Assembly (NCBI RefSeq): GCF_949628265.1
Contig: NC_088786.1
Span: forward strand, 41,747,681-41,811,680
Direction: 5' to 3'
DNA length: 64,000 bases
Source: Cloeon dipterum
Taxonomy: Eukaryota > Arthropoda > Insecta > Ephemeroptera > Baetidae
In this document: positions 46,962-64,000 of the stretch, piece after piece
How the letters are laid out: each line of letters starts with the position of its first letter
How positions within the stretch are numbered: position 1 is the stretch's first letter
Notes under the pieces: model-generated
Database searches by the model: none
Told to the model about the DNA's origin: nothing
Seen by the model: the letters and a program-made list of their open reading frames with translations, nothing else
Translations under genes and position numbers: made by a program

Positions 46962-49900
46962 TCATTCGCAGATGATCCTCGACCTAGTAGAGCAGTCAAA
47001 GGCCTTGACGGCGTTGCCTTGACTTAAAAATCCAGCACAGTCTGTGGAACTGCTAGAAGGGGTGTTATAATACCATCCAACTTGAGCATTTTCGAATTTC
47101 AAGCTTCCGTTCGACCATTTCCAAGCCCGATCGATAAATCGAAGGCCAATTCCCAAATATTCGCTTCCTAATTGTAATTTTAAGATGAATCTAAGGGGCA
47201 ATATTTCAGGAAATGGTACCTTTGGAAAGAGATCCCGAGATATGTGACAAAGAATCTGCAATCTCTTGAAACTTGTTTGATGTTTGAATTATCAAGAACG
47301 CGCGTCCATAGCTTTGGCACCAGGCTTCAGCGATTGTATTGCTTACCTTTAATTTCAAACATGGAGTACAGGTTATAGAGGTAATAAAATGTTTTATTTA
47401 TACCGGATAGCCTGAAATCAAGTAGTCACGTCCAGAGGCTCTCAAGATGTAATCTATTTTTGCAAAAGAACAGGACTTTAATAATCTTTAAAATATATTA
47501 AATGCATACGATCCGTCAAGTTCTTCTTGCTATACGGAAGATACTGTATTATAACGTGGAATAATTAATTAAAATTATAGATTACGTTGTTTCACAAACA
47601 AATGGAAGTTGATAATTGCAGAATTCAGAGAGTAATTTTCCTTTCAAAGTAGCAATGCAACTTCCATAAGCAGAAACGTTTGGGTGATTGTCTGCCCAGC
47701 CCAACTGGCTTTTGTTGTTCAACAGAATCCAGTCCTTGCTATGGGGAGTTGATTTCACGTACGATCTTTCGTTTGCCAAATCTAATCTGGGACTTAAAAG
47801 TTTCTGCATCATTTAAAAATCATGATGAGTATACTTAAAGATGTAATAAGGTCAAATGCCTCTCCATCCAGCTCAAAAGGAATGTCTAAATACAACAGAG
47901 TGGCCGACTCGTCGATTGAGTTGCAGTACGAATTGGCTTCATCAATGCACATCTTAAATTTGACATATTATAATAATTCATATATAATTTCAGTGAGGGG
48001 TGATATTTTGGTTACACGGGTGGGAAGAGGCACGAAATATCTCCCAGAGACCGAGTAGTTAACTGAAAGACACGATTTAAAATTGTTTTCATACCTCAGA
48101 AAAATTAATCAAACCTGACGTATGCGCCAGCGGACTACCAGTGAAAGAAAAGTTTAAAATGTATATATTTCAATTCCTGAACACGTACATAGTTTCACAA
48201 ATGAAATAGGCTTTTTGGTCGCACGGCGTGAACCACAAGGATCCTTGTTTGACAGTGACACATTCTCCGAAAGCGGATGTGTTTCTGATGTAAGTTTTAG
48301 CATTCGCAACAGTCGTCCAAGGAACATAAGATCCGTTGATGAATTTCAAGTCGAGAAAGTAGGAAGCGTTGTACCATTCTTCAAGAAGAGTTTAAGATTG
48401 AAAAGAATGGAAAGAAAATTGCAGTATACCCGTTATATTTGAAGTTTTCAAAATAAAATCTCTTAACTCCCCTGAGCAATCCAGTGTCAACAATTTCATA
48501 TTCAATTCCTTGCACTTTTTAACAGCTTCCTCGTATGTTGCCTATAATTATGTATAATTTGTAAATGGTAAATTATTTAGCCTGATTTTCCACTCCCAAC
48601 GGTTTCATTCATCAAAATAGTGATTCTGGATCCAGTGGTATAATTCGTCACTTTAAAACACTAATTCAGTAAAAGCTATGATAAAAATCATGAAGTCTCA
48701 CCAGTTACAGGCGGAAGAGTTGTTGTAGTTGTTGTTGCTGTTGTTGTTAGGGTTGTGGTTGGTGAAGTAGTAGTTGTGGTTCCTGCGACAGCTGCTTGAA
48801 ACAAAATAAAATATGAGAATTGACTCTTGTGAATCTATATATAAATAGGGAACTTGTTGCCACTGAAGTGGTGCTTCTAGTTGTTGTAGTAGGCGTAGTT
48901 GAAGTTGTAACGATGACCTGTGTTGTAGTTTGGGTGGTTGTGGTCGTTGGTGCATCGCTTTGGGTCGTTTCAGGTTGAATTCCGTACGTACTGTCAAACC
49001 CAGAAGAAGATTCCAATGATGCTCTACAAACGGGGTTTCAAGATCAAGATATCAAAAAATATATGGATACTTTGATTCAGTAGTCTCTTCCTCTGCTTGA
49101 ACGGTTGCATCCTCTTTGGTTGGGAGTCCAGTCGCTTCAGTGTCAGATCCAGAAGAAGTTCTGATTAACAAAATAATAATAATCGAAGGGTTTTTCTTAG
49201 TTAACAGTTGCAAACAGATCGTTTTTGGTCAGTAAAGCTGCCTTTGTGGTTTTAACAATAGTCGGTTTAGGCTGAGGAGACGGTTTGAATCCAGGAGGGT
49301 CAGGTGCCTGACAAACAAAGTTGGAAACCATGTCGCACGAGACGCCAGTGAGACCGAGGGTGCTCAGACCTAAACAATCACCGTCGGTTGAAGGGTCTTT
49401 AGGTGGAAGAAGTGCAGAGGCCAAATCTCCCAACCAATCCGAGCCACCGTCGGTTACTTTCGACATGGAGGTCAAAAGCGTGGAGGATGACAGGCCTGAG
49501 AAGATATTAAATCAAGGATTTTTAATCCGTTAGTCCAAAACTACCAATATCTCCGAGAAAGTCTTGAACAGAATCCAATTGCGTGAGAGAGTCGAGGGAC
49601 ATTAGCTCCAAGCCTTGGTCTTTGCACATGGATTTAGCCTCGGGAACCGATGCCCTTTCACTGGGAACGACCAAATTCTTTCCTCCAACAAAGTTCAAAA
49701 CAGCTGCAGTAATTTAATTAGGAGATATCGTTTAAAAAATAAATGCAAATAACCATCTTCAATCGAGGATAAAGAGTCCAAGCCCCTAATTAAAATAAAT
49801 TTTAAATAATTAAATTGAATTTTCTCGGTTTAAATGATTACAGAGAAGATTTGTCCACTTCTTTTGGGTCCTCGCAGACGAAATTGCTTTTCGCACTGCA

Positions 49901-50995
49901 CGAAGCGTTGTAAAACTTCCCATCCTGCTGCACGAGGCAATCGCCAGGGCCACCTGGTGGACTTCCGGATCCCCAGTTGGAAAATGCTCCTCCTCCAACC
50001 ACTGCTGATATTGACGAAAGAACGGGGTCGTCGGACAATCCTACTTGCGAGAAAATTTAAATCCTGCGCCCGCTTTCCCTTAAAGAATAATCAAACCAAT
50101 GTACTGAAGATATTCAGAGATTTTGGAGACTTCATCGGGGCTGTCGAAAGATGCTATTTCCATGTTTTCCTTTTCACAAATTTTCTTGGCACCCTCGTAA
50201 TTAGCCTTTTATTAAATGCGTTTCAGTTTTGATTTTGGCTCAAAGATTTTAAATACCTTTCCATACGGGAACATGTACTTTTTTGTTCCGATCCGAACAG
50301 GTTTGAAAGACGGCCCTGCATTCATAGTTTTAAAAACAGAATTTTAAAATTATTGCTTTACCATTGACGGCAGAACGCCAACCTGAAAAAATATAGATAT
50401 AACATGACTCATCATGGTGATGGAAAAATGAATCATTATTCAAAAATGCTGCGCTCTTGCGACTAGAAATGTTTTTTTTTAAAGAAAGGCATTGACTGGT
50501 ATCCGGTTTGGAAACAATTCGTTTCATTCTCACCATCAGTTTTTGATGTCCCGTTTCTAAAGCAATATTAATATATTTTAAATCAACAAGAAAGCCCATT
50601 AGGTTCCATACTTAATCTTGTTTTTATTTAATTTTGAGCATTTCCTTCGACCACAGCATTTTATTATGAAGGATCGCGGTTCACTGCGATGCGAGTAAGT
50701 TTTAACTAAAGAATTTTTTTAAATTAAATCGTATGTAACTTCCAAGTAAGTTTAAATAATACTTTTGATGATTTGCCTATTCACCAATCCACCTAAGCCG
50801 AAACGTCCTTTTTCATCAACAGAATGAGGCATTTCAAATTAAATATTTCAACACTTACTCGCTCGTTTTTTACCACAGTCCAAGGGATGCTGAAAATTTA
50901 AATAGGAAAAGCTACAAAAAATCAAATACAGAAGAAGCAATTCTTACAATGAAGGCAAGAAAGAGCAAAACGACAGCAAACACGGCCGAATTCAT
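46962..50995 (-). CDS. Secreted multi-domain C-type lectin with mucin-like linker (left gene of the array, five CTLDs, no OBP module)
   Basis: A 26-exon model in full phase agreement gives 862 residues: 50948-50995, 50859-50889, 50763-50807, 50612-50705, 50534-50556, 50362-50382, 50257-50315, 50097-50205, 49842-50040, 49754-49785, 49545-49703, 49216-49495, 49071-49160, 48854-49023, 48702-48794, 48601-48650, 48430-48541, 48189-48378, 48115-48134, 48016-48062, 47835-47952, 47586-47781, 47510-47529, 47404-47453, 47220-47346, 46962-47167. A signal peptide (MNSAVFAVVLLFLAFI) precedes a basic segment (CCGRRKC), two lectin-like domains (YMFPYGK...NFVCE; FVGGKNLVV...NFVCQ), a Thr/Ser-rich mucin-like linker, and three more (NMKLLTL...FICE; MCIDEAN...FVCE; AWCQSYG...IICE). 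None has a clear EPN/QPD plus WND calcium-sugar site. It is probably an extracellular recognition protein; the ligand is unknown. Some small exons have weak acceptors. Confidence 0.65.
48702..49160 (-). other. Thr/Ser-rich mucin-like linker of the left lectin gene
   Basis: Three exons (49071-49160, 48854-49023, 48702-48794) encode a stretch dominated by Thr, with Ser and Pro, such as TTTTTQTTTQ and TTTSPTTTLTTT. Such linkers are usually heavily O-glycosylated and extended. It separates the two-domain N-terminal cassette from the last three lectin domains. Confidence 0.7.
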
Positions 50996-51245
50996 CACAT
51001 TTCCAAACGACTATAGCTGAGTTTTGCTCGACAAACTGCGAAAGTGGAACGGTGTCGACCAACTGCAGCTGCCGTGACGGAAGTGAGGTGTCCGCAACAC
51101 AAAATGTGACAACTCTTTCGCTGTGTTTTGAGTGAAAATGAGCCCGAGAGTGGTAGCAAGCCAGGAAGTGATGCATGCGGGGAAAACACACGAGAGAGTG
51201 GCATCATTTGTGCTGTTTCCCACCTGTGTTTCAAGCTCGACAGTT
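50996..51245 (-). promoter_or_regulatory. 5' flank of the left lectin gene, conserved with 60,108-60,350
   Basis: Roughly 240 bases upstream of the start codon match those upstream of the next lectin gene copy. Shared blocks are GTTTTGCTCGACAAACTGCG, AAAGTGGAACGGTGTCGACC, GGAAGTGAGGTGTCCGCAA and CTCTTTCGCTGTGTTTT. The overlapping frames are by-products. It is the likely promoter and 5' UTR, retained with the duplication. Confidence 0.6.
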
Positions 51246-52657
51246 CAATTTCACTTGATGCTGATGCATCGAATCAAAAAGAGATGGATGGGCCAAATGA
51301 TGTGCCGACCTGTCACTTAAGGGTTACACTCTACTTTACTGGGGAAATCGCGAGTCAGCGGCGGCGTCACCGACGCAGACTTTTTAACGGTCGTTTCAAA
51401 CCGCCCGCCACCCTCTCATTGGCCCTCGGAGCGCCCCCACCTCTCCAGACCAGCCACGAAGGGGTGTAGGGCATCGGGAAAGGTGGGGAAGTTACGAGCT
51501 GGATTAAGATATTATTATTATGCCATTACAAAACCAAATTACTTTTAATGCCGAGAGGAGCAACAAAATTAAAATATATAAAGAATGGCTCAGCCTCAAC
51601 ACGCGAGCCTTTCCGGCGAGCGGGCTTCTGGCCCAGGTGCGGCCGAGCAGCGCCAGTGGCCCATGCGGCAAACTCGCGAACCATGCCGGCGTCCACCGCC
51701 ATCTTGGCCTTGGTCCATATTTAACATTTGTGGATTAATTATTCGGTGCTTGGGCCTTATTGGGGGTCCAAACGTTTTACACATGTTAAAGAAACTTGAA
51801 ACTACATAACAAACGTGTTGTCCGGCCGCCATCGCGCCTCAACACACCAAAAATAAAATAGGAAACTCGCGGGCATCGTCTACATTCGCGCGCGACATTC
51901 GGCCTCGCATGCCGCACTTTGGGGACTCTTACGGGGTTCAGGGGGGCATGGCAGGGGGTTCACAGTATCACTTTAGCTTTTATCTTCACTTGGGCCTGCT
52001 TTTGGTCCGTCGGCGCACTCATTTTCCCAACTTTTTCGCTGCTTTTCCTGGCACTCACACCACGCACGCAGTCACTCGACAAACAAACTCTGTGCACGGC
52101 TGCACGCGGCACGCGCCCCGGCTTCTCACGCCTAGCTCTCGCCAGATCTCGTGGTGTTCGCTTGGCGCGGGAAACCAGGGCGTGACCTCTGGCGGCTATA
52201 CCTCTCACAATGAGAACAATGAGAATCAACAGCGATCTAAGGTGGGACGTGCACACTGACACAGTGCGCATGAAAGCCGCTCGCGTGCTTGGCTTTGTGA
52301 CCCGTCACCTTCGAGGGTGCACTCAAAAGGTCAAAAGGGTCACCTGAGTCAAATCTGCCGATGATAACGAGACGGGAGACATGAGTCGGACAAAAGGCAG
52401 CAGGTCACCTTTTCTTGACCTTTCTCTTCTTGCAAATGCGATAAAAAGCGATTGTTTGATTCTCTCAGTCTGTGCTTTGTCAAATTAATTTTAATTTTGC
52501 TCTTTTCGCTGAAAGACCACGCAAAGAAGAAATTAATAAATCTAGTAGAACCAAATAAAATGCAGTGAAATATTTAAAACCGTTTTTATTCAAACCACTG
52601 ATATTTCACGCAAGAAAATGATGCTAAGATTAAAATTGAGGTGAGAAACAATTTTTC
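51246..52657. other. Intergenic DNA between lectin gene copies
   Basis: Contains a GC-rich CpG patch at about 51,350-52,200 whose frames run on both strands without domains, and an AT-rich part near 52,440-52,650. The latter matches the 61,290-61,440 region (TTGACC-TTCT-TTCTTGCA-ATGCGAT), so the duplicated unit includes the spacer. Minus-strand AATAAA at 52,585-52,590 is a plausible polyadenylation signal for the gene ending at 52,658. Confidence 0.5.
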
Positions 52658-55600
52658 CTATGGTTTTACGCAAATAAAGAAAGAATCATAAATGTCTGGG
52701 TAGGTATCGTATTTCTGCGGATTCTTCAATTGGTCAATCAAGTTCTGAGACGAGAGAGGAATTAGTTTTTTCGAATGAGTATTCGCAAACATGAGCGAAT
52801 CCTCGCAGGGATATCTATCTGGATACGCAGTATCGTAGTAAATATCCTGCAAAACTGTGCGGCTGTTGCACCACACCTCGTGCGTCGCGTTGATGAACTC
52901 CGTCTCTCCCACGAATGCTATATCAAAAAAAGCTGCAATTATCGAGCATTTCATTATATTTCTGATTTGCCTGAGAACAATTAGCTCACTAGTAGTTAAA
53001 TTTGGAAGCAAATTAAAATCCATCGGGGTCTCAGGCTCCATAAACTTCATTCCCACGGAACAGCAATGTTTGTACATATCCACTGGATTCTGTTATTTTA
53101 TAAGATTTTATGTTGAGATGGATATTTTAAAGGTTGTGAAATTTATACACTATTTTCTTATCTGTGAAAACCATTATGAGCATTTTAAACGACTTCAAAC
53201 ATATTTAAAATCACCGAAAAGCGTTAAACATTATTCATCAGTTTAAACAAGCATGTCTAAAGTTCACAACCAGACTAACTTTTAGAATGATTACATAATA
53301 ATAAGGGTTATAGTTGCCAACATAGTAAGTTTTGTTTTGCATTCTCATTATCTTTCCTTTGCTATCTATAACCAAAAATTAAATTAATTGAAGCATCACA
53401 TAAAAAACTTCCTACATACCAGTACCGTTGCCATTCAGCACATCTACGGCAGTTTGCTTTAAAAAGAATCAAACAAAGTCAGAAAAAAATAATAAAAACA
53501 TACATTGACTACGCAGGGGTAATATTCTGAGATCCAACAACTTCGACGCTTGGGAACACAATCAATTGGAGTGGAAGACTAAAAGTCATTTTGGAATGAA
53601 TTATGCAGAAATAAATCACTTATATTTGCTTACGTTGGTCGCATCAGCAGCATTGTTTGCGATTATTGCGGAAACCACGCCAGGCGCCTTCTGTTGGCAG
53701 CACTTGTACATTTCGTAGGCAGTCGTGCAGTCGTCATTCAACTCTGAATCAAACAATTAAATCGTTCTCAAAGTGGAATTAAAAATGCAAACTAATTGCG
53801 CTGCACTGGAGGAAGGCAGTCATTGCCTGTTCAAGCAAAACAGGATTTTCCTGGGCTACGAGTTCTATTTGCCGCAAAACTTCCATGCTCATTGCCTTTC
53901 CAAACTCAAACTAAAAAAAACTTAATTTTAATATTTTTCAGCTTTTGAAATAAATGAAAATACCATTCCCTTTTCAGATCCAACGCATTTTATGAAGCAC
54001 TGAAAAATAAGTAAATTGTGTTTTAAGAATCCAGGTTCAAATTTAATTAACCATCAGGTTCTGCGAAACGCTTGCCGCAAGGAAGGCAGTCGCGTTAAAA
54101 AGCAGGTTAATTTGTTCTGAAACAACATCAATTTAAAATCAGAATCCCTGTTAAATTTCCATTTGAACCGTAAGGCACATCCCAGATTTCTGCACATTCC
54201 GTCTTCACGATGCCCACTTGGGAATCCACGGCTTTTCTTCGAACCTCGCAAAGCGGATTTTTCTGTTCTGCACAGTCGGCTGTTGCCAGCAGTGCCACTC
54301 CGTTTCTAACCTCGAGATAAACGCAGGCAAGACCAGCCATTGGATGTCCAACCTTCCACTTGATTTCGGCGGGAATAAAGTCTCGGTTTCTCGAGCACCA
54401 CCGGAATTTTGAGGGGCACCCTTGATCTGTTCCAGACAACCAGAAGTCACCGCTTCCATCTGGATAGTTTAATTATTATAACATTATCAGAGCACCGTTT
54501 TCGCGCACTCTTGATGAGTTTGGAAAGGCAATTCAATTTTCCAGCCGACTCCATCGAGGCCAGGGTCAGACCGATTTCGCAGCATTTATCCCGAGCTGTT
54601 GTCCAGCTAGCCTGAGATTTCAGAAGGATAAAATAGATCGAAACCAATTTAATAAGGAATTACCGCGCTTTTTGTAAAGTTTAAAAACATTCGTCCACAT
54701 CCTTGGTACCAGTCTCCATAAATGAAATACTCTTTATTCATTTAAAAACGTTATTTGCCATTAATTCCCTCTTTTCAACAAGAAAAAACCAACCTATCAG
54801 GACACCTTTCCCGTTAAATAGAGTTGGCTTTAAAACAATTCAATTTGGAATTTAAATTATAATTAATATTTTTTTAACTGATCGTTGGCAGATCCCATTT
54901 GGACAAGTAGCAACACACAGCGTAGGAGGTTTGATGATCAGAGACTAAAATTTCTCCGCAGTTTAATCGAAATTCGCTTATCTCTAATTTAAATACCTTG
55001 CACGCGAAACTGTAGCGGTTTGCACAGTTCCTGTCGGACAAGATTAGTCCTGTTGAATTAAAAATAAAGCGGAGGTGCGTGCAGCCCTCATTGCCGCTTT
55101 TGTTGACCTTCTCCCACGTGAAGCTCTGGGTGAAAATTACTGGACCATTGGGCTCGCACCACGACCATTGACCGGCTGACGAGGCCTTATTCGTTCCAGA
55201 GGTCCAGAAATTGGAGGTTGCCTTCCAATTGGCTTGCAAATCATAATATTTAGTTCAAATATTAATATAATTTAAGAAGCAAAATTCAATCGCAGTCATA
55301 TTTTATTTATCCCCTAAATTTTATTGGAATAAATTAATCACTTTTTGTAAGAATAGTAAGAGCTTCCTGTTCTGCCAGATTATCGACATTGAACGCTTCC
55401 ATTCCCAAAGCACAACAATGCGCGTAGTTCTCCAACCAAGTCATCTGAAACAAATCAATTAAATGTCATATATCCTTTTCTCTTGATTTTTTATATTAAT
55501 TGAGCAAAAAACCGGCTGATTTCCAAAGAGATAAGTGTAATTTCCGATGGCAGTCCAAAACCCGTAAGAGGGCGCATCTACAGTAAAACGTATTATATCC

Positions 55601-56267
55601 ATTTGTAACTCAATAATATCTCAACTTTACCCTTCAAGCTTCCAGAAGAATCAAATAAAGAATTCTAAAATTTAATCTTTAAGTGAAAATTATGCTTTGT
55701 AAGAAATCCAAACGTTTTTTATGCAAACGTCGCTGCTAGGACATTTAACGGTGTACTGGCAGATAAACGGCAGGTTTTCACTGCAGTTTTTGTGCACCGC
55801 TCCACTGGCGGAAGAGGCAGAAATGACGAAAGCCAAACAGCGTTCGGCGGGAGTGGGTGACACCGTTGTTGAAAGCCAGAAATTATTCGAAGAAATCAAC
55901 GTGGGAGACATGTTGTAGCCCGTTGAGCACCACGAGTTCTGACTCAACGGCGCACAAAGGGGATCCACGTTCGAGCCACCCGTCCAATAAGTTCCGGCTG
56001 ACGAATGGAATCATTAGGCTGTTTGATAAAATTATTCTAAATTTTACCATCCAAGCTAGCCAAGCATTGAACCTCCTCATAGGAAGTTACGGCCAAGAGT
56101 GTCATGTTCAGCGCCTTGCACCGCAATCCGGCCTCGTTTCTCGGCACCTTGTAATTGATATAAATTAATTCTTTCCAATTGATAAATAAAAATCATTGTT
56201 ACATTAACGTTTGAAACGTAATATTTCCTATTTAAGCACTTTGGTGGAACTTTTGCTGAGCCATCGG
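52658..56267 (-). CDS. C-type lectin / odorant-binding-protein chimera, C-terminal part (central copy)
   Basis: Twenty-one exons in full phase agreement: 56209-56267, 56048-56147, 55714-55997, 55631-55664, 55513-55577, 55342-55444, 54997-55232, 54879-54944, 54794-54827, 54664-54731, 54509-54611, 54169-54459, then 54052-54116, 53964-53999, 53793-53910, 53634-53743, 53504-53578, 53420-53456, 53280-53365, 52990-53089, 52658-52917, giving 775 residues to TAG. Order: lectin domain (NEAGLRC...FICQ), linker with KCPSSDVCIKN, lectin domain (TWLENYAHCC...SFACK), linker with TCPNGICQRS, lectin domain (SWTTARDKCC...NPLCE), OBP-like helical domain, linker with two Cys pairs, and a last lectin-like domain (KHCCSVGMKF...FFICVKP). 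The first exon here is open at its 5' side in phase 1, so the gene continues upstream, probably into the 56,592-60,107 exons. Secreted recognition or ligand-carrying protein is inferred; the partner is unknown. Confidence 0.7.
53634..54196 (-). other. Odorant-binding-protein-like (PBP/GOBP) module within the lectin gene, central copy
   Basis: From the Cys codon at 54,194-54,196 to the end of exon 53634-53743. The six cysteines follow C-x30-C-x3-C-x42-C-x8-C-x8-C, the spacing of classic insect OBPs (x3 between C2 and C3, x8 between C5 and C6). The sequence around C2-C3 is MCFIKCVGSEKGMFEFG and around C5-C6 DDCTTAYEMYKCC, both OBP-like; between C3 and C4 it is amphipathic helix-like. Classic OBPs are secreted carriers of small hydrophobic ligands. 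An extra Cys follows C6 immediately. The module starts inside a lectin-domain exon and is spread over five exons. Confidence 0.75.
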
Positions 56268-56591
56268 CTGAGGTTCAAGGTTAAATACTCTTTATTATTT
56301 TCGTTTTTAACTTTCTTTTTGTTCAAACCTTTGTTTGGAATTTCTGTTGGATTCTTTCAAAAGAATAGATTTGGTTTATTAATACATATAATGATTGAGA
56401 TATGTTTGGCAAAATTTAGCCGGTCGGAAATGCAACTTGTAGCCACAAATATTATGATAGTTACTCTTCAAATTTGTAAATTACCACCAAGAATTTGTTG
56501 AAATCTGCACAATCTAGAAGACATGGAAGAGGCTATAATGCAAGAATAGCGTTTCGCAAAAAAGCAGTTTTAAAATATCATTAACTTATAC

Positions 56592-56863
56592 AGTAGTAGT
56601 TGTTGTTGTTGTTGTTGTTGTTGTTGTCGTGGTTGTTGTTGCCGTCGAAGTAGTTGTTGTCGTCGAAGTAGTTGTGGTCGTCGTGGTTGTTGTTGTGGTA
56701 GTTAGAAAGCTTGTAGATGATGTCGCCCGAGTGGTTGTTCCAATTGACAATCTTTAAATACGTCTCTGTTAAAGAAAAAATGCTATAGTTGTTCAGATAA
56801 TTTTACGTCGGAACTGGAGAGGTTGGTTCAGTTCGCCTGGTGGTCGTTGATGGAGTAGTTGCT
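56592..56863 (-). other. Thr-rich mucin-like linker of the central lectin gene
   Basis: Exons 56807-56863 and 56592-56751 encode TTPSTTTRRTEPTSP-type sequence and then about 45 residues that are nearly all Thr, with a few Ser and Ala. At DNA level this is a (GTT)n-like microsatellite on the plus strand near 56,597-56,700, so length differences between alleles are likely. Confidence 0.75.
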
Positions 56864-59800
56864 CTGATTATATCAACATTATGTCTTGGAATAATTTAAA
56901 AAAAAAAGAATTAGACATTTTGTTTGTGGTTGTGGCTTTCACGGTGCTGGTTTTCGTTCCTGGTGGATCTGGCACCTCGCAAACAAAGTTGGAAACCGTG
57001 TCGCACGAGATTCCCTCGAGACCCAGAGCGCTGAGACCGAGACAGTCGCCATCTTTTGACGGGTCTTTGGGTGGGAGAAGCACAGAGGCCAAATCTCCCA
57101 GCCAATCAGTGCCCCCGTCGGTGACCTTTTTCATCGAGGTCAAGAACGTGGTTGATGAAAGGCCTAATGAGAGAGAGGATGCCATCAAGAATTCTATAAA
57201 ATCGAGACGAAACTATACCAATGTCTCCAAGAAAATCCTTAACAGGGTCAAGCTCAGCGATCGAGCCAAGAGACATGAGCTCCAGACCTTTGTCTTTGCA
57301 AATGGTTGAAGCCTCGGGAACCGTAGCAGGGTTTTTCGGTATTAATAAGTTTTTCCCCCCAACAAAATTCATAACCGCTAATTTAAGATAATTAGAATAG
57401 AATCATACAATTGAAAACAATTCCAACCATCTTCAATTGACGTTAAAGAGTCCAAACCCCTGCGAATAAATAAACGGAAAACAATATTAAAATCCATTAA
57501 TTTAGTACAAAATTTACAAAGTTGATGCGTCATCCTCCTTTTGACCTTCACAAATAAAATGGTTTTTAGAGTCGCACGAGGCGTTGAAAAATTGCTTCTT
57601 TTGTTGCACAAGGCAATTTCCCGGACCTCCAGGAGGAGTTCCAGATCCCCAATCCGATAACAAATTTGCTCCTTCCGAAATTAGAGATGAGAACGACGAG
57701 AATACTGGGCTATCGAGTAAATCTACCAACACAAATTGTGATACGAGAGAAAAATACATTTTAATTGATCTATCTAACCTATATACTGCAAATAATTTGA
57801 AATGTCTGCGGCTTCGGTCGGGCTGTCTAAAGAGGCTATTTCCATTTGGTCCTTTTCACAAATTTTCTCGGCATCAGAGAACGAAGCCTGTAAATTTTAC
57901 CCGTAAACATTTTATTGCTTCTTAAATATAGAAAGTCACCATCTCTTTTGGAAACTTGTACTCTTTAGCTCCAATTTTGACCTTTTTGTTAGAAGGTGCT
58001 AAACGACGTGGTTTTGAAGTTGAATATAAAACTATAACATGTTTTTAAAGTGGTTTACAATTGAATTCTGTCCGCCATGCTGAAAAACATCACGTGATTA
58101 TAACATGACGTGAATTTCACAGGAAGATTTCGTGGGGGAAACAGGAATTCCACGAATTATAGTCATTAAATTTTAAAAATTTGACCAATCGCAACGTGAA
58201 GAGTTGGAATGATTTTTAAAATTGAAAACAGAAATACCGTCAGGTTTTGTTGAGGCTCTCCTGAAAGAATGATGCACTACAAGATTAATAAATAAATAAG
58301 TTTCCAATAATACGGTTTCGTGGTGGGTTTTTTAGGAGAAAGTTTTTCCATTCCTGGTGGGTCAGGCGCCTGACAAACAAAGTTGGAAACCATGTCGCAC
58401 GAGACGCCAGTGAGACCGAGGGTGCTCAGACCAAGGCAATCACCGTCGGTTGAAGGGTCTTTTGGTGGAAGAAGCGCAGAGGCCAAATCTCCCAGCCAAT
58501 CCGAGCCACCGTCGGTTACTTTCGACATGGAGGTCAATAGTGTGGAGGACGACAGCCCTGAGGAGATAATAAATGAAGAATTTTTAACAAAACTACCAAA
58601 TGTGCACCAATGTCTCCGAGAAAGTCTTGAACAGAATCCAATTGCGTGAGAGAGTCGAGGGACATTAGCTCCAAGCCTTGGTCTTTGCACATGGATTTAG
58701 CCTCGGGAACCGATGCCCTTTCACTGGGAATGACCAAATTCTTTCCTCCAACAAAGTTCATAACAGCTACAAAAATTTAGTTAGAAGATCTCGTTTAAAA
58801 AATAAATGCATAACCATCTTCAATCGAGGATAAAGAGTCCAAGCCCCTAAATAATACAATTTAAGTAAGAAATTAAATAAAACCATCAGTTTCATGGTTC
58901 ACAGAGAGGATTTGTCCACTTCTATCGGGTCCTCGCAGGCGAAATTGCTTTTCGCACTGCACGAAGCGTTGTAAAACTTCCCTTCCTGCTGCACGAGGCA
59001 ATCGCCAGGACCACCTGGTGGACTTCCACTTCCCCAGTTTAAAAATCCTCCATCTCCTCCTCCAATCATTGTGGAGATTGACGCCAGAACGGGGTCGTCG
59101 GACAATCCTATTTGCAAGAAATTTTAAATCCTTGACCCACTTTTACTAATTTATTCAAACCAATGTACTGGAGATAGTCAGAGATTTTTGAAACTGCATC
59201 GGGAGTGTCGAAAGATGCCAATCGCATGTTTTCCTTTTCACAAACTTTCTTGGCACCCTCGTAATTAGCCTTTTATTAAATACGTTTCAGATTTGCTTTT
59301 CGCTCAAAGAAATTAATTAAATACCTTTCCGTACGGAAACATGTACTTTCTTTTCCCGATCCGAACAGGCTTGAAAGATGGCCCTGCATTCATAGTTTTA
59401 ATAACAGAAATCGGAAATTTGAAATTATTTCTTTACCATTGAAGGCAGAACGCAAACCTGAAAAATTCGATAGTTATCACGACTCAACATATATGGCGAT
59501 GAAAAAGTGAATCATTCTACAAAAATGCTGTGCCATAGCAGCTAGAAATGTTTTTTTTTTTTAAAAAAGAGAGAGGCTAGCAGTGCCATGTTTGATATTT
59601 GGTCTGGCATCCGGTTCATGGAAACAAAATTTTTATCACTCTCACCGTCAGTTTTTGATGACCCGTTTCTGCGTGAAAGCAATATTGCTTTAAAATCTAC
59701 ATAAAGAACCTTGATATTTTGTACTTTTTCTTGTTGAAAGAATTCGAGCACTTCCTCCGACCACAGCATTTTATTATGAAGGATCGCTGATCTCTCCGAT

Positions 59801-60107
59801 GCGAGGTTTTGACTTAAGATTTATTTTAATTAAACTGTGTGCTCTAAAAGCGAGTTGGAATAATACTTTTGATGATTTGCCTGTTCAACAATCCACCTAT
59901 GCCGAATTGTCCTTTTACATCAACAGAAACAATAAACAATAATTCTAATTAAATATTTCAACGCACTTACTCGCTGATTTTTTTCCGCAGTCCAAGGGAT
60001 GCTGAAAATTGTAAATAGAACTTAAACAAAATCAAATGCAGAGGGAGCAAAATGCTTACGAGGTAGGCTAGAAAGATCAAAACGACAGTGAACACAGTCG
60101 AATTCAT
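56592..60107 (-). CDS. Secreted multi-domain C-type lectin, N-terminal part (central copy, four CTLDs plus mucin-like linker)
   Basis: Twenty-two exons in phase, 717 codons: 60060-60107, 59971-60001, 59867-59911, 59710-59812, 59646-59668, 59437-59457, 59325-59383, 59161-59269, 58903-59107, 58815-58846, 58608-58766, 58314-58557, then 58238-58260, 58059-58079, 57940-57998, 57779-57887, 57518-57722, 57428-57459, 57219-57377, 56917-57163, 56807-56863, 56592-56751. Signal peptide MNSTVFTVVLIFLAYL, basic segment, a two-lectin-domain cassette, the same cassette again, then a Thr-rich mucin-like stretch. The cassette matches the left gene exon by exon. Domains end NFVCQ, HFICE or NFVCE and lack obvious EPN/QPD and WND sites. 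It most likely continues into 52,658-56,267 as one gene, but the join between 56,592 and 56,267 is not resolved; a separate gene ending near 56,480 is possible. Confidence 0.65.
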
Positions 60108-60350
60108 CACGTTCCCAAGCGACTATAGTTGCGTTTTGCTCGACAAACTGCGAAAGTGGAACGGTGTCGACCAACTGCTGCTCCCGTGACGGAAGTGAGG
60201 TGTCCGCAAAACAATACATGACAACTCTTTCGCTGTGTTTTTGGTGATAATGAGCTCGAGAGTAGTAAGAATGCAGGATGTGACGCATGCAGTGAAAACC
60301 TGCCAAAGAGTTGCACTATTTTCTGTGATTGCCACACCTATACCTGTGTT
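60108..60350 (-). promoter_or_regulatory. 5' flank of the central lectin gene, conserved with 50,996-51,245
   Basis: Same blocks as upstream of the left lectin gene, including GTTTTGCTCGACAAACTGCG and GTGGAACGGTGTCGACCAAC, with only scattered differences. Likely promoter and 5' UTR carried along in the duplication. Confidence 0.6.
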
Positions 60351-61496: not shown

Positions 61497-64000
61497 CTAT
61501 GGATTTTTCACGCAGACGTAGCCAAAGACATATTTTGGGATGTAACCGTATTTCTGCGGATTCATATAATTGTCAGCGAGGTTCAGTTTTGAGGAAGAAA
61601 CTAGAATATGCCGAGAAGACTCCAAAAGAATGATCGACTCTTCGCAGGAATATCTGACTGACGCCACACCGTAGAAAGTATCCTGCAAAATGGCGCGGCT
61701 GTTGCACCACACCTCGTGCGTCGCGTTGATGAACTCCGTCTCGCCAACGAACACCGGAGACGAAACGTAATTCGCTGCAACGAGTCTTCCATTTTATTTC
61801 TGATTTGCATTAATAATGTCCAGCTTACAAAAGAAAGTGCTAATCAACATATAATCCTCCTTGGTCTCAGGTTCCATAAGCTTCATTCCCAAGGAACAGC
61901 ATTTTTTGTATATTTCCACTGGATTCTGTCGTGTTTTTTATTAGAATTTCCACTCAAGAGATAAATATTATAAAGGTAGTGAAATTTAGACTTCCGTTTC
62001 TAAAATCGATTAAAATCATTACGAACATACATAAAATGCGGCAAAAACCGTACATTGTCTAAAGTTCAAAACCATTTACTAATTTATATAATTACAAGAA
62101 GTCCAACAGAATCAAAGTTGCCAACATAATAAGTTATGTTTTGCACTATTCTCTTTTTTCCTTGGCTATCTATTTAAAGAAGATATCTTAAATTTCTTGA
62201 AATGTCATTAAAAAACAATTTCCAGCGTACCAAAATTCTTGGTATTCAACACATCTACGGCAGTTTGCTTTAAAAAAAATTAAACAAGTACGAAACGAAA
62301 TTATAAATATACTTACATCGACTTCGCAGGGATAGTTTTCTGAGAGCCAACAACGTCGGCGCGCGGGAACACAACCGATTGGAGGGGACGACTGCAATAA
62401 TTTTGACATGATTCAGGAAGTATAAAATATAATTTTTATCATACGATTGATCTATTATCATAATTTCTTATGATTATTGCCGAAACCACGCTAGGCACCT
62501 TCTGTTGGCAGCACTTGTACATTTCGTAGGCAGTCGTGCAATCATCATTCAACTCTGAATCAAAGAATTAGATCGTTCTCAAAGTGCAATTAAAAAATTC
62601 AGACTAATTGCGCTGCACTGGAGGAAGGCAGCCATTGCCTGTTCAAGCAAAACAGGGCTTTCCTGGGCTACCAGTTCTATTTGCCGCAAAACTTCCATGC
62701 TCATTGCCTTTCCAAAGTCAAACTAAAAATTAAAAAAATCTTTAAAGCGTTCCAAAAATAAATAAAAAACAAACCAATCCCATTTCAGACCCAACGCATT
62801 TTATGAAGCACTGAAAAATTTTTAAATTGTTTTTTATTTAATCCAGGTTGAAATTTAACCAACCATCAGGTTCCGCGAGACGCTTGCCGCAAGGAAGGCA
62901 GTCACGTTAAAAAGCAGGTCAATTTGTTCTGAAACAAAATTAATTTAAAATCAGAATCACTGCCGAATTTTTATGTCAATTAACCTAAAGGCACATTCCA
63001 GATTTCTGCGCATTCCATCTCCATAGCCACGTTGGGAGTGGCTTTTTTTCGAATCTCACAAAGCGGATTTTTCTGTTCTGCACAGTCGGCTGTTGCAAGC
63101 AGGGACGTTCCGTTTCTAACCTCGAGATAAACGCAGGCAAGACCTGCCTTTGGATGGCCAACCTTCCACTTGATTTCGGGGGAGACAAAGTCCCGATCCC
63201 TCGAGCACCACCGGAATTTTGAGGGGCAACCCTGGTCCGTTCCAGACAGCCAGAAGTCACCATTTCCCTCTGGATTTTTTAATTGTTTAAAAGATGCCAG
63301 AGTAAAATATTCCCTCACTGTTGATGAGTTTAGAAAAGCAATTCAATTTTCCAGCAGACTCCATCGAGGCCAGGGTCAGACCGATTTCGCAACATTTATC
63401 CCGAGCTGCGGTCCAGCTTTCCTGAGATTTCGGGTATTATAAAATAGGTCAAACCTATTAAAAAATATTCTACCGCGCTTTTGGTGAAGTTTAAAAACAT
63501 TCGTCCACATCCTTCGTACCACTCTCCATAACTGAGATATACTATATATTTAAAAACGTTATTAGCCATTATTTCACTCTCTTCAACGAGAATTAACCGA
63601 CCTATTAGATTACCTTCAACATCAAACAGAGGAGACTTTAAAACAATTTAATTTTATTTTAAGTTTAATTAATTATATAAATTTAACTAATCGTTGGCAG
63701 CTCTTAGTTGGACAAGATGCAACACACAGCGTAGGAGGTTTGATGATCAGAGACTAAAACATTAAAAAAATAATTGAAATCCGCATTTGTCTCATTTAAA
63801 TACTTTGCACGCGAAACTGTAATGGTTAGCACAGTTCCTGTCGGATAAGATTGCTCCTGTTGCATTCAAAATCTTGCGAAAGTGGATGCAGCTCTCATTG
63901 CCGCCTTTATTGTCTGGCTGTCCTTTCTCCCACGTGAGGCCTAGGTTAAAAATTGCCGGACCAAAGGGCTCGCACCACGACCATTGACCGGCTGACGAGC
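61497..64000 (-). CDS. C-type lectin / odorant-binding-protein chimera, right copy (5' end beyond window)
   Basis: A second intact copy of the 52,658-55,240 gene part. Exons checked include 62984-63274 region, 62864-62928, 62775-62810, 62605-62722, 62445-62554, 61829-61925 and 61497-61774, the five central ones having the same lengths as in the central copy (65, 36, 118, 110 bases for the OBP part). It encodes the lectin domain with TDQGCPSKFRWCSRDRDF, the OBP-like module, a Cys-pair linker (CWLSENYPCEVD) and the last lectin-like domain (KKCCSLGMKLME...VCVKNP) ending in TAG. At the window edge an upstream lectin domain (WSWCEP, SFACK) begins. Frames are open throughout, so both copies appear functional. 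The last exon keeps the conserved FVGETEFINATHEVWCNSR stretch. Confidence 0.7.
62445..63012 (-). other. Odorant-binding-protein-like module within the lectin gene, right copy
   Basis: From the Cys codon at 63,010-63,012 to exon end 62,445. Same C-x30-C-x3-C-x42-C-x8-C-x8-C spacing as the central copy, with substitutions such as EKGM to EMGL and NPVLL to SPVLL. Both copies keep all six cysteines and identical exon lengths, which argues for protein-level constraint. Confidence 0.75.

Follow-up and report, generated by a model that had tools for sequence, protein, structure and literature searches.

A predicted gene family combining C-type lectin domains with an odorant-binding protein module in the mayfly Cloeon dipterum

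Odorant-binding proteins (OBPs) are usually regarded as soluble single-domain carriers of scent, and the classic ones bind small hydrophobic ligands. Classic insect OBPs of the PBP/GOBP type, such as LUSH (1oof) and OBP1d (4pt1), are small, secreted proteins that consist of one domain. The OBP fold is also found within larger secreted proteins that contain two OBP domains, among them the mosquito D7 proteins and the dimer OBPs, where one OBP is joined to another. The mannose receptor and LY75 contain several consecutive C-type lectin domains, and sugar-binding C-type lectins have an EPN or QPD motif, the latter marking the galactose type, together with a WND motif. The gene described here resembles the classic OBPs in its six cysteines, its match to the Pfam family PBP_GOBP and its profile matches, but its module lies inside a multi-lectin protein and lacks a signal peptide of its own. 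As in the D7 and dimer proteins, the OBP fold would be part of a larger secreted protein, although here OBP is joined to lectins. The row of lectin domains recalls the mannose receptor and LY75, whereas the OBP module and a Thr/Ser-rich stretch are additions and most copies lack the usual sugar motif in the lectin domain next to the module.

Cloeon dipterum has a 180 Mb genome with 191 OBP genes, the largest insect repertoire reported, and 82 of 167 of these OBPs are expressed in gills, 25 of them specifically (PMC7250882). The word 'lectin' is absent from the main text of that paper. A study of another mayfly gives 10 OBPs, each with a PBP_GOBP/PhBP domain, and names dimer OBPs (PMC13205551); four OBPs are given for a damselfly (PMC5381652). 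In the open-access literature we found no lectin-OBP fusion, and none was known to the author of the original prediction. A domain database may hold lectin-OBP architectures without description. The domains themselves are known; their arrangement in about a hundred copies is what we did not find described in that literature.

The fused exon and the odorant-binding module

The gene lies on the minus strand of the window, by which we mean the whole stretch of 64,000 nucleotides that was analysed (C1:41747681-41811680); unless a contig is named, positions are those of the window and features are on its minus strand. A first spliced model contained ten exons running from 54611 to 52658, all bounded by GT-AG introns and consistent in phase. 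Central to this model is a fused exon (54169-54459), found in the spliced model and in the paralogue search, which is open throughout and encodes both the end of a lectin domain, NPLCE (54245-54259), and cysteine 1 of the OBP module (54194-54196). Because both parts are encoded in this single exon, the join between them is independent of splicing. Cysteines 2 to 6 come from four exons 3′ of the fused exon in the spliced model: OBP exon 2 (54052-54116), OBP exon 3 (53964-53999), whose CFIKC contains cysteines 2 and 3, OBP exon 4 with cysteine 4 (53793-53910) and OBP exon 5 with cysteines 5 and 6 (53634-53743). The resulting spacing is C-x30-C-x3-C-x42-C-x8-C-x8-C. Thus the splice phase and the spacing of 30, 3, 42, 8 and 8 bear out the original prediction that a lectin-like domain ending in NPLCE runs straight into six spaced cysteines within an open gene that stays in phase.

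The remainder of the lectin domain, which we number 5, is encoded upstream by an exon of the spliced model (ASWTTARDKCC..., 54509-54611) and by an N-terminal exon (EYFIYGDW...FTKSA, 54664-54741) that is conserved in paralogues and has a putative 5′ splice site. Downstream of the module, both spliced models contain a linker exon with three cysteines (53504-53578) and a second linker exon (53420-53456). These are followed by the first exon of a C-terminal lectin-like domain (53295-53365), the 3′ end of which was placed at 53280 in the first model and at 53295 in the second. A single last exon at 52658-53089 was rejected, as it read through an intron, and was replaced in the second model by an exon beginning NPVDMYKHCC (52990-53089) and a last exon with the stop codon (FVGETEF...FICVKP, 52658-52917). 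The limits 54169-54459 and 52658-52917 of the original prediction hold in the spliced models. The window contains one further copy of the fusion, at 61506-63418, which comprises lectin domain 5, the OBP module and the C-terminal domain.

The identity of the module was examined by profile searches. PBP_GOBP matched residues 116-222 of the 450-aa model at 34.6 bits (cut-off 22), and the module alone gave 38.9 bits against the same cut-off, so that the HMM search proposed earlier for this module came out positive. In the PDB, the single module sequence found OBP1d at an E value of 6.7e-4 and LUSH at about 6e-3, and a profile of 20 modules brought E to 1.3e-9 and 4e-8. For this profile, 20 of the 38 modelled modules were picked for spread, leaving out L026 and L027; at E ≤ 0.01 it retrieved 26 PDB sequences, 23 of which are named odorant- or pheromone-binding proteins and three of which carry mosquito gene numbers. 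All 20 modules in the alignment matched PBP_GOBP, one of them also matching an unrelated family at 0.0082. The six cysteines were present in 37 of the 38 models, and the remaining locus (L046) has the exon for cysteines 2 and 3 in its DNA. Two of the cysteine gaps measure 25 and 40 residues in the divergent locus L063, compared with 30-34 and 42-43 at the other loci. Taken with the roughly one hundred paralogues and the purifying selection described below, the Pfam and PDB profile matches uphold the assignment of the module as a classic six-cysteine OBP. As a whole protein, however, it departs from the classic OBPs, which are small, secreted, made of one domain and equipped with a signal peptide, as cysteine 1 here shares an exon with the lectin domain. 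Judged from the genomic sequence, the chimeric gene is real: its PBP/GOBP module immediately follows a lectin domain within a protein that has multiple C-type lectin domains.

Copies of the fusion across the genome

The genome comprises 190 Mb in 10 contigs, and the five contigs encountered in this work are 33 to 43 Mb long. When it was searched with the fused exon of the window gene, the exon recurred at 96 places with E ≤ 1.4e-27, none of which contains a stop. At 95 of these places the match crosses the lectin/OBP junction, reaching query position 95 or beyond; at the remaining one (C1:41343016) it ends at query position 79. Chance adjacency of lectin and OBP genes was ruled out, as a single exon spans the join at these 95 places. 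Next in rank were two weaker places (1e-17 and 5e-17). Lectin exons of the ordinary kind came after these, at about 1e-13, and the majority aligned over the lectin part only. The 96 places are distributed over C1 (44), C4 (39), C5 (8) and C2 (5) and, once the next place is included, form 27 groups. Since the search scores the best candidates only, these family counts are lower bounds. The original prediction concerned one gene; the fusion it proposed is real, yet the gene is not single but one of about a hundred in the genome, and its protein is larger than was described.

Adjacency was counted from 98 candidate fused-exon places out of 150 listed rows, 150 of 181 OBP matches and 94 of 157 C-terminal-domain matches, with one piece per place chosen by hand. 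At 93 of the 98 candidate places an OBP match follows on the same strand, no more than 2.5 kb downstream (none at five), and at 90 a C-terminal-domain match follows within 4.5 kb (none at eight). Conversely, 148 of the 150 OBP matches listed stand downstream of a fused exon; the other two are the window fused exon itself and C4:16091655, which is another fusion. Two separate C-terminal-domain matches were seen 3′ of one fused exon at C4:33645508-33646794. We modelled 38 loci by homology-guided splicing, 37 from the main clade and L063. The usual exon sizes were 103 bases for the lectin end, 285 or 297 for the fused exon, 65, 36, 118 and 110 for the OBP exons and 75 for the linker, sizes that lean towards those of the window gene because its protein guided the models.

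A divergent clade differs at the junction. At L063, L067, L075 and L076 a lectin exon is followed by OBP, with a phase-0 intron straight after the lectin ICE; for L075 and L076 the query had been joined at the intron point and the donors, gtcgag and gtcaag, are weak. Two further places, C3:8.76 Mb and C5:31.19 Mb, have a lectin match next to an OBP match. The intron-bearing clade suggests that exon joining came first and that the intron was lost later in the main clade. According to this scheme, a lectin exon would have been joined via a phase-0 intron to an OBP gene, replacing its signal peptide, and intron loss in the main clade would have been followed by tandem expansion. The family could then serve as a dated example of exon shuffling with subsequent intron loss and tandem expansion.

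A stand-alone OBP was found at C4:18.353 Mb; it has a signal-like start and scores 53 bits against PBP_GOBP. Used as a query against the genome, it found only itself (four matches at one locus) and no close copy. A second PBP_GOBP match without a lectin in view, at C3:3.625 Mb, scores 28.8 bits and contains two stops. A direct PBP_GOBP search of the genome returned only four candidates; it is nearly blind because OBP exons are short, and its yield therefore gives neither the number of stand-alone OBPs nor the fused share.

Lectin domains and layout of the whole protein

Upstream of the module, the lectin assignment is supported by Pfam. Lectin_C matched residues 2-106 of the 450-aa model at 25 bits (cut-off 22.6), lectin domain 5 scored 25.0-29.1 bits, and all 10 sequences of this domain that were given to the search matched at E ≤ 0.1. 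The best PDB match to a domain 5 profile was the mosquito C-type lectin mosGCTL-1 (9t9z), for which no OBP part is named. The preceding lectin domain, domain 4, scored 29.8 bits in the copy on C2 and gave no Lectin_C match in the window gene. Its QPD motif is present at 25 of 26 loci and is lost in the window gene. The sugar position of domain 5 is mostly HPx rather than EPN or QPD, and [ST]D stands at the WND place. HPx in domain 5 and the loss of QPD from domain 4 of the window gene would argue against the usual mode of sugar binding.

The domain that follows the OBP module matched nothing in Pfam or the PDB. Profile comparison with lectin domain 5 gave 65% over 43 columns with seq­uences numbering 7 and 86% over 62 columns with 21, the larger profile being drawn from the 38 models after removal of those with stops, with scores under 290 or cut short. 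These comparisons suggest that it is probably a degenerate lectin-like domain. Of the lectin-like domains predicted on both sides of the OBP, the upstream one is thus above the Lectin_C cut-off, and the downstream one is weakly supported, by the 65% and 86% profile comparisons without a Pfam or PDB match.

The gene seems to extend far upstream of 54611, the start first proposed for it, probably to a signal-peptide exon at 60060-60107. The N-terminal exons of the window gene were assigned from open frames and by analogy, and their splice sites are putative. In the isolated copies on C2 and C5, the open frames begin with a signal peptide and a Cys-rich exon and continue with a stretch rich in Thr and Ser (46 to 72% S+T), then three lectin domains, the OBP module and the C-terminal domain; the C5 copy has two extra lectin domains between the Cys-rich exon and the Thr/Ser-rich stretch. 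Matching pieces are present in the window gene, from the signal-like start at 60107 through the lectin pair, which is doubled here, to an exon with 82% S+T. The probable signal-peptide exon, assigned to this gene by analogy with the isolated paralogues, encodes MNSTVFTVVLIFLAYL and is followed by a GTAAGC donor. A Cys-rich exon with approximate ends (59727-59777) contains IIKCCGRRKCSNSFNKK, a motif that also follows the signal peptide in the C5 and C2 copies. Open frames then encode copy a of a first C-type lectin-like domain (58932-59363), which resembles a domain of the C5 copy, and copy a of a second lectin-like domain that ends in PDPPG (58352-58755). Both are repeated as copies b: the first at 57517-57981, where pieces of open frame joined by eye score 25.6 bits against Lectin_C, and the second at 56949-57402, where the open frames score 20.3 bits, below the cut-off of 22.6. 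The window gene thus has this lectin pair in duplicate (56949-59363), whereas the C5 copy has a single pair and the C2 copy has none. Further along are the Thr/Ser-rich, mucin-like stretch, an open frame with approximate splice ends (56589-56753), the open frames of lectin-like domain 3 (55693-56274; Lectin_C 21.5 bits, below the cut-off of 22.6) and those of lectin-like domain 4 (54997-55545). Comparison with the isolated copies suggests that the complete protein starts with a signal peptide and a Cys exon, followed in some copies by a lectin pair, and continues through a Thr/Ser-rich stretch and three lectin domains to the OBP module and a degenerate lectin-like end.

Pieces of a neighbouring gene are present at 48170-51020, with a signal-like start at about 51.0 kb, a lectin pair ending in PDPPG at 50.0-49.2 kb and a further lectin-like stretch at 48.4-48.2 kb; among the matches listed, no OBP match falls in this interval. 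Window positions 51000-51250 and 60100-60350, each upstream of a signal-like start, are alike in translated frames, which suggests a duplicated promoter region.

Possible functions and selection on the parts of the protein

We propose, with about even confidence, that the product is a secreted multi-lectin chimera whose lectin domains hold it at surface glycans or mucus while the OBP module binds a small hydrophobic ligand there. The protein would be secreted and probably O-glycosylated, and its fast-changing C-terminal domain would diversify its partners. As domain 4 keeps QPD at most loci and domain 5 mostly has HPx, anchoring would rest on domain 4 or on contacts other than sugar. A carrier anchored in this manner would stay in place instead of washing away, a property that would fit life in water. 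On a broader and more tentative reading, to which we give slightly less than even weight, the 191-gene OBP repertoire of C. dipterum would consist in good part of lectin-OBP chimeras instead of free carriers, a new surface-bound, water-side class of chemical-binding proteins with an origin in exon shuffling and a later expansion to about a hundred genes. OBP modules inside secreted lectins would change how OBP counts from domain-search annotation are read, and the family would offer a direct test of whether OBPs can act when immobilized or in roles other than smell. It also bears on the gill OBPs reported for this species (PMC7250882).

A different role for the same architecture would be immune or mucus recognition, in which the lectins recognise microbes or particles of food, and the OBP scavenges a lipid or toxin with no part in smell. 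The multi-lectin layout resembling the mannose receptor or LY75, the Thr/Ser-rich stretches and the arrangement in large tandem arrays, whose C-terminal domain changes fast, are all consistent with such a role. This evidence fits a chemosensory protein alike, and we consider the immune role less likely than not.

Selection bears on whether the module still has a function of its own. Median dN/dS (Nei-Gojobori) over 37 close pairs, defined by an OBP dS under 0.6, was lowest in lectin domain 5 (0.19) and OBP (0.21) and reached 0.57 in the linker and 0.63 in the C-terminal domain, the last value being unreliable, like the C-terminal alignment, because first-pass models were used. The set comprised 37 of the 38 models, L063 being left out by score, and included L026 and L027, whose stop codons were passed over, as well as L046, whose exon for cysteines 2 and 3 was modelled wrongly. 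These estimates point to purifying selection on lectin domain 5 and on the OBP part. For the window gene against its neighbours, OBP dN/dS was higher, at 0.34 to 0.70, and outside the typical range. The module could in principle be a mere folded spacer between lectin domains that has lost ligand binding, and it does have few invariant residues besides its cysteines; we judge this improbable, since the module is constrained like the lectin domain (0.21 vs 0.19) and all six cysteines are kept.

The gene model comes from genomic DNA alone, which would allow a separate OBP gene and lectin gene to be read as one. With both parts in one exon at 95 places, no signal-peptide exon in between and phases that agree, this explanation is very improbable. 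Two of the 38 modelled loci (L026 and L027) have a premature stop within their OBP part, which might point to a decaying pseudogene array, a scarcely credible reading given the dN/dS of about 0.2 in lectin domain 5 and OBP and a fused exon free of stops at 96 of 96 places.

Distances in the lectin and OBP parts agree across the 37 loci (Mantel r 0.62, with none of 2000 permutations as high), and those in the OBP and C-terminal parts do not (Spearman -0.01). Among the 37 pairs, the apparent synonymous divergence of the C-terminal domain often exceeds that of the lectin and OBP parts, an apparent difference that may reflect gene conversion of the core or errors in the models.
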